A stretch of DNA of 64,000 nucleotides from Candidatus Aminicenantota bacterium (GTDB lineage Bacteria; Acidobacteriota; Aminicenantia; Aminicenantales; Aminicenantaceae), in assembly GCA_011049545.1 (NCBI GenBank), contig DRHQ01000012.1:1-64000 (forward strand), read 5' to 3'. The stretch's first letter is position 1, and each line of letters starts with the position of its first letter. A program made the position numbers and the translations under genes. Shown here piece by piece: positions 29,574 through 49,568 of the stretch. The notes below the pieces were generated by a model. The model ran no database searches, was not told the DNA's origin, and saw only the letters and a list, made by a program, of their open reading frames with translations.

Positions 29574-29792
29574 ATGCCTATTTACGAATTCACCTGCAAA
29601 AAGTGTGAAGAGCACTTTGAATGCCTCGTTTCAATAGGAAAGGAAGAAAACGTCTCCTGTGCTTCATGCGGGAGTAAAGATATACAAAAAGTTTTCTCTT
29701 CCTTCGGAATAGGAGGAGGAGGGAATCGTGTCAGTTCTTCTTCTGCAGCCTGCACAACTTGTTCCGCCACTACATGCGACACCTGTAAATAA
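29574..29792 (+). CDS. FmdB-family zinc-ribbon protein
   Basis: A 72-residue protein of the FmdB/CxxC regulatory type. The N-terminal PIYEFTCKKCEEHFECL carries the first CxxC, and NVSCASCGSKDIQKVFSSFG the second, together forming a zinc ribbon. A serine/glycine linker and a C-terminal cysteine-rich tail (CTTCSATTCDTC) follow, as in many family members. The function of the family is not established and the regulatory name is historical. It stands alone between repeat-filled gaps. Confidence 0.9.
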   Translation: MPIYEFTCKKCEEHFECLVSIGKEENVSCASCGSKDIQKVFSSFGIGGGGNRVSSSSAACTTCSATTCDTCK

Positions 29793-29852
29793 TCCAGGTG
29801 AATTAATTCTCACCTATTATATCCCTAAGTATATCTAAAAAGATCAAAAGGT

Positions 29853-48885: not shown

Positions 48886-49217
48886 GGATCTGGCGCCTTT
48901 CTCTTTCTATTCTATTTCCTGAAGATTCGTTCTCTTCTGGCAATGATCATTACCTTTCATCATTACATGAATCTGTTTTCTTACTAATCAACAATTTTCC
49001 ATGGCTCTTTCTCAGACCTTCCTGAGCAGGTCAACGGAGAGGACTTACATCTTCCTCGTCCAAAACATATAACATAGCATAGATTTGTTGTCAAAATTAA
49101 TAAAACATTTGCACGGACAGCTAGAATTCATCTGAGAGTCTATGGTCTGCTATGTGATTGCTGATAACAAAAAAGCTCAGACTTCAAAGACTTGACTCAT
49201 CTTTTTTTATCAACTAT
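48886..49217. other. Gene-free region flanking the structured element
   Basis: No credible gene. Its right end (49187-49217) reads AAAGACTTGACTCATC, a T-run and ATCAACTAT, matching 53036-53068. See the element entries. Confidence 0.55.
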
Positions 49218-49470
49218 CCTGGATTATTCACGAGTCGACATTGCTGCAGATGCAAGGCGTCAGCCCATGAAGCTGTGGTCCTCCACTGCGAATGGGCTGC
49301 AACGAAGCAGATGCGGTGAGATCGACTCGCCACCAGGGAAAAAATGCCGATTATTATAGATAGCTTCTTTTCGAATAAGTGTTTATCAGGATCTACAGCA
49401 ATATCAGGATATCTTTTTGATATTGCTGTAATTGCAGAAAGTATCGGCATTTTTTATGAATAATTCAGGT
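49218..49470. mobile_element. Structured 253-bp element with nested inverted repeats, MITE-like or structured RNA
   Basis: Outer ends CCTGGATTATTCA (49218-49230) and TGAATAATTCAGG (49457-49469) pair at 12 of 13 positions. Directly inside lies a first arm, CGAGTCGA/TCGACTCG (49231-49238/49322-49329), containing CAGCCCAT/ATGGGCTG (49261-49268/49292-49299) and a GTGG-TCCT-CCAC tip. A 9-nt junction follows, then a second arm AAAAAATGCCGAT/ATCGGCATTTTTT (49339-49351/49443-49455, 13 of 13) that contains CAGCAATATCA/TGATATTGCTG (49396-49406/49418-49428, 11 of 11). The whole can fold as a three-way junction with almost no unpaired bases at the junction. A 78-codon minus-strand frame across it has no family look. 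The first arm is more GC-rich than the surroundings. Confidence 0.65.
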
Positions 49471-49568
49471 TATTTATAAAGAGAAATAATGCTGAATTTT
49501 CATTTTTTCCTTAACTGAGGTAAAAAAATGAGAACTGCCCCCTTTTTCCGTAGTCCAAAGAGTTTCCG

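Follow-up and report, generated by a model that had tools for sequence, protein, structure and literature searches.

Structured RNAs are known from several kinds of mobile DNA, among them the non-coding RNA (ncRNA) of retrons, the bridge RNA or seekRNA of IS110 and the guide RNAs of TnpB and IscB. Short mobile repeats form a second group: ERIC, Correia/NEMIS, RUP, BOX and QMITE are small, palindromic and modular and have foldable transcripts, and reviews cover both the fold and its effects on mRNA (PMC2229807, PMC10969869). The Chunjie miniature inverted-repeat transposable element (MITE) of Geobacter uraniireducens is 178–235 bp long, intergenic and present in high copy number with size variants (PMC10969869). 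We analysed a 64,000-nucleotide stretch of a Candidatus Aminicenantota genome (phylum Acidobacteriota; GenBank assembly GCA_011049545.1, contig DRHQ01000012.1, positions 1 to 64,000; hereafter the window) and describe a 252-bp element that spans 49218–49469. It shares small size, palindromic layout, mobility, modularity and foldable transcripts with ERIC and its like, and it resembles Chunjie, compared by description alone, in size, intergenic position, high copy number and size variants. Unlike retrons, IS110 and TnpB/IscB, it carries no reverse transcriptase, recombinase or nuclease gene, it has inverted ends with a 4-bp duplication, and it has no Rfam match. The explanation that we favour, at a probability of about 0.8, is that a MITE moved in trans by a DDE transposase carries an RNA domain that is presented on the plus strand to a partner.

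The original prediction had suggested that the element may be a MITE with terminal repeats CCTGGATTATTCA or, alternatively, a structured RNA. The first suggestion holds: the element recurs, duplicates 4 bp of its target, is missing from the corresponding sites of sister genomes and has ends that match those of a full insertion sequence. Its own genome, a 3.24-Mb draft that is 90% complete, gave at least 38 BLAST matches to the element and at least 14 covariance-model matches to its left arm; these and all further copy numbers are lower bounds. Dozens of genomes in the order have copies: most of those in the family do, as do parts of two further families, with at least 61 copies in one genome (G068) and at least 25 in many others, and all 80 named loci among the matches listed in a search with the core pattern described below belong to Candidatus Aminicenantes. 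The inverted ends of the MITE are CCTGRATTATTCA. The flanking 4 bp were identical in 40 of 124 complete copies and within one change in 76, compared with 6 copies for 3-bp identity, 3 for 5-bp identity and 3 in a shifted control, and the duplicated target site has the consensus YTAR. The locus is precisely empty in the sister genomes G001 and G004 (CAACTATTTATAA), and alignment to these empty sites revealed a 4-bp duplication of CTAT at the window insertion, with the left copy intact (49214–49217) and the right copy now TTAT, one change away (49470–49473). Element lengths cluster at 252–256 bp, with variants of 145 bp (no left arm), 302–306 bp (an extra nested hairpin) and 15–67 bp (minimal fused ends), and only 1 of 125 copies lies inside an open reading frame (ORF). 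All features open to checking identify the element as a MITE: terminal inverted repeats, a short target duplication, and many dispersed small copies without coding capacity.

The plus strand of 49218–49469 folds as a three-way junction with a minimum free energy of −110.4 kcal/mol, against −64.7 (s.d. 5.1) on average for shuffled sequences (z = −8.9; 0 of 200 shuffles equally good). The minus strand folds less well (z = −7.2). The nested inverted repeats had been laid out correctly in the original prediction, although with the element end one base too far (the true end is 49469), and its view that such a structure is unlikely by chance agrees with the z-score and with the recurrence of the structure in the same genome and in relatives from the same family and order. 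The 13-nt outer ends, that is, the left terminal repeat CCTGGATTATTCA (49218–49230, plus strand), which is common to full-length copies, and the right terminal repeat TGAATAATTCAGG (49457–49469, minus strand), form 12 Watson–Crick pairs and one G·T. The left arm (49231–49330, plus strand), a conserved structured RNA module as judged by covariation in 99 copies, has an outer stem of 49231–49238 paired with 49323–49330 that encloses a bulged hairpin with a tip stem. Its core (49240–49322, plus strand) contains UGCRAGGCG...CAACGMAGCA, and covariance models R1 and R2 score 133 and 87 bits, respectively, at the left arm. Between the arms, at about 49331–49339 on the plus strand, lies the mini-hairpin CCACCAGGG (consensus CCYGAARGG), which is helix 5 of the alignment A1 introduced below and has double changes in 3 of 3 pairs. 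On the same strand, the two sides of the right arm's outer stem, AAAAAATGCCGAT (49339–49351) and ATCGGCATTTTTT (49443–49455), form a perfect 13-bp inverted repeat as predicted; the inner perfect stem (49394–49406/49418–49430) also has 13 bp, not the 11 first proposed. The interior of this arm (49352–49442, plus strand) is lineage-variable, as subfamilies diverge and the reading frame is not kept. That the right arm encodes a small protein was considered and rejected: a 39-codon ORF, with a Shine–Dalgarno-like stretch, ends in the right terminal repeat of the window copy, but frames are split 46/44/37 among copies, and stops vary. A simple terminator was also rejected, as a pattern search found no terminator-like site.

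Some copies depart from this layout. In several of them the left arm is interrupted, always at one point, by a further hairpin repeat (GATTGCCACGCTCCGCTCGCAACGACG...CGTCGTCG), a repeat nested in the MITE (L040 1263–1564, L050 881–1186, L051 1008–1313 and L053 910–1215). Palindromes of 15–67 bp at YTAR-like sites contain little beyond two fused terminal repeats and are likely collapse products of the MITE (L236, L240, L241, L242, L249, L250 and L251 of genome G016; L208 1499–1513). Tandem left arms 150–200 bp apart, from adjacent or compound elements, occur at G007:C137:68185–68505 and G068:C3:136589–137040 (two and three copies, respectively).

The left arm has evolved by compensatory change. 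In an alignment of 99 left arms (A1), clustered such that no two exceed 93% identity, 26 of the 36 consensus pairs changed on both sides. Double-change cells numbered 405 compared with 115 in shuffles, and 96.6% of paired cells could pair compared with 86.7% in shuffles and 28–45% in slid controls; 0 of 500 shuffles reached the observed values. The outcome that the original prediction had named as refuting, an element with neither other copies nor covariation, was checked for and not obtained. Pairing was also strand-specific: among mismatched cells, G·U exceeded A·C by 9:1 (420 vs. 48), and parsimony on a tree counted 133 changes from Watson–Crick pairs to G·U and 33 to A·C, together with 102 double compensations. 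The terminal repeats have the same asymmetry (167 G·U vs. 15 A·C), and the right outer stem leans the same way (35 vs. 13). Strand-biased mutation such as deamination was rejected as the cause, as unpaired sites lean in the opposite direction (G>A 183 vs. C>T 83). Given the 9:1 excess of G–U over A–C, the simplest reading is that the left arm is under selection on the plus strand as RNA, with single-stranded DNA less likely. The structured RNA that had been offered as the alternative to a MITE is thus supported by covariation and the G–U excess, which establish a conserved plus-strand fold; the two are not alternatives, and both are supported.

Two other accounts of this pattern were weighed. 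Hairpin-templated repair (quasi-palindrome correction) might match the arms to each other and leave covariation as a mutational by-product without selection; the arms are palindromic and the 15–67-bp fused-end remnants do show hairpin rearrangement. Such repair, however, predicts no asymmetry between G·U and A·C, whereas we observed 9:1 against the mutational bias of unpaired sites, and it does not explain the invariant internal-loop bases, which are kept from genus to genus and throughout 26 sequences of several Acidobacteriota lineages. We regard it as very improbable. Alternatively, the fold might act as single-stranded DNA, with hairpins formed on one strand during replication or transposition and bound by protein, which would fit both one-strand selection despite random gene orientation and the asymmetry shared by the terminal repeats. 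The inverted ends, the 4-bp duplication and the DDE-type IS1380 ends found here are unlike those of single-strand (HUH) transposons as these are generally understood. Moreover, G–U pairs are nearly fixed at set places (A1 columns 28–107 and 20–116), which is typical of RNA, and we consider the DNA account unlikely.

For the spread of the RNA core, we searched 396 Acidobacteriota genomes together with a virus collection and plasmids. The left-arm model had weak yet multi-copy matches in other Acidobacteriota classes. Several of these are large elements that have inverted ends of their own and also contain the core UGCRAGGCG...CAACGMAGCA; in many, a CCC-GAA-GGG-like mini-hairpin comes next. The ends of these elements, e.g., GGGCTCGCGCAGAAATAA, CAGGCCGTGGTGGAAGTG and TGTCCTGTCCCATCTAAAAC, are unrelated in sequence to CCTGRATTATTCA, and their target duplications, from inspection of a few copies, resemble CTAG or CTWAG. 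In a phylum-wide alignment of 26 cores (A2), double changes occurred in 13 of 16 pairs and the covariation score was 0.575 compared with 0.183 (0 of 500 shuffles). At E-values up to 1e-4, the core model R2 matched 80 of the 396 genomes and 50 of 210 genera, and many genomes had at least 11 matches and many had played no part in model building. No plasmid searched had a match to the core. Viral carriage was rejected: the strict pattern found nothing, and five relaxed matches were chance-like, without the fold or inverted ends. One and the same conserved RNA domain is thus carried by several distinct MITE families. It constitutes an RNA family new to Rfam, for which there was no match at or above a gathering cut-off in the window, nothing relevant at E-values up to 10 and none at related loci. 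In the literature searched, which left most subscription journals outside its scope, we found no description of a single RNA domain shared by MITEs whose ends are unrelated, nor of phylum-wide covariation of an RNA core common to such MITEs.

The shared core also bears on a more conventional view, in which this is an ordinary MITE whose hairpins are merely tolerated in transcripts, in an insulator- or terminator-like manner, and whose RNA has no specific partner. Intergenic placement (1 of 125 copies inside an ORF) and strong hairpins are indeed features of ERIC, Correia and similar elements (PMC2229807, PMC10969869). This view leaves unexplained why internal loops are invariant, why MITEs whose ends are unrelated share a core and why selection is on one strand, and we doubt that it is correct.

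Two further observations concern the distribution of the RNA. Nearly all members of the Acidobacteriota genus g75 (G201, G262, G291, G298, G312, G326, G353 and G476) have one weak R2 match with E-values of 1e-6 to 6e-5, G201 having two; this single match may reflect either a host locus conserved in single copy or chance similarity within a conserved gene. In L343, two mutually inverted matches to Acido-Lenti-1 (Rfam RF01687; 189–234 and 335–380) lie within a few hundred bases of an element that bears the RNA.

A candidate for the mobilising enzyme came from a genome of the same family (G036), in which locus L058 contains a full IS1380-family insertion sequence; its transposase matches NF033539 (399 bits, E = 2e-119). 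This was the full-length insertion sequence with the same ends that the original prediction had proposed to look for. Its ends are CCTGAATAATTCATAAAAAAAGC (also written CCTGAATAATTCATAAA) and CCTGATTTATTCATAAATT, and identities between MITE and insertion sequence ends were 19/19 and 21/23; the 19/19 identity is between CCTGATTTATTCATAAATT and the end shared by one MITE subfamily of the window's genome. G024 and G028 also have relatives or deletion derivatives of this insertion sequence. The element thus resembles IS1380 and MITEs derived from insertion sequences in having the terminal sequence of an IS1380-family element from the same bacterial family, small size, no ORF, a short target duplication and an intergenic position. 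Unlike such derivatives, it is not a simple internal deletion, and the insertion sequence itself lacks the left arm. In contrast, a 361-bp piece at L071 1369–1729 is a true internal deletion of an IS1380 element, a conventional MITE beside an RNA-bearing one. We rejected the existence of an autonomous copy with both RNA and transposase, as none was found and the long candidate elements were false pairings. The ends also speak to a non-autonomous retron-like ncRNA served by a reverse transcriptase in trans. One outer stem (a1/a2), a conserved msr-like arm and a variable, long msd-like hairpin would suit it, but the terminal repeats, with their match of up to 19/19 to IS1380 ends and their 4-bp duplication, do not, nor does the lack of an Rfam match; we find it hardly credible.

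The mechanism that we propose for the RNA-bearing MITE is as follows. As a non-autonomous DNA transposon, the element would depend on a DDE transposase supplied in trans, in Aminicenantes most likely of the IS1380 family, that leaves a 4-bp duplication at YTAR. Its plus-strand transcript would fold as the three-way junction, which the paired terminal repeats close and in which the conserved RNA domain makes up the left arm and a variable hairpin the right. The conserved internal loop (UGCRAGGCG / CAACGMAGCA, flanked by GA/GA) may be shown to a host or transposase-associated factor, and this contact would raise either the spread of the element or its tolerance by the host, for example by recruiting a factor that aids transposition or by protecting the host transcript. 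Selection would act on the transcript itself. The transcript should be driven by the element rather than by read-through, because gene orientation is nearly random while selection is one-stranded; no good internal promoter was found in the element. As MITEs whose ends are unrelated share the domain, its benefit is probably independent of which transposase moves the element. A bolder extension, which we put forward only tentatively and think rather unlikely, is that different families of DNA-transposon MITEs acquired or kept a phylum-conserved RNA domain that promotes their spread, i.e., an RNA-dependent aid to DDE transposition, such as docking a host factor or the transposase to the element's own transcript.

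Several points weigh against the proposed explanation. Flanking genes are oriented nearly at random (left gene on the plus strand in 65 of 121 cases, right gene in 72 of 121, the latter with P = 0.045, uncorrected), so that read-through alone cannot explain one-strand selection, and an orientation bias this weak was rejected as an explanation. G·T pairs are tolerated in single-stranded DNA too. The members of A2 from outside Aminicenantes were partly chosen by motif, which builds in part of the motif conservation, although not the stems. An intact IS1380 with these ends was not found in the element's own genome (draft, 90% complete), and the complete genome G016 contained no more than a 67-aa fragment. 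We therefore only infer the mobiliser: in Aminicenantes, an IS1380-family enzyme with YTAR as its cutting site is the most likely one.

The window copy is flanked by a PilZ gene on one side and a flavodoxin-UbiA gene on the other; the genes in its neighbourhood are PilZ, CN_hydrolase and UbiA/flavodoxin. Elsewhere in the window, a lone 13-mer (29786–29798) resembles the terminal repeat with one mismatch; it has no partner element beside it, and its occurrence is close to chance expectation.

MITEs are usually viewed as passive leftovers of insertion sequences with drifting middles. In the present element, conservation is highest in the middle. This part evolves on one strand in the manner of a functional RNA, and its core is common to elements with different ends across the phylum. 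Whether some DNA transposons depend on RNA thus becomes a testable question. The analysis also yields a covariance model for a large RNA family that is missing from Rfam and that recurs at the repeat-broken contig ends of environmental genomes.
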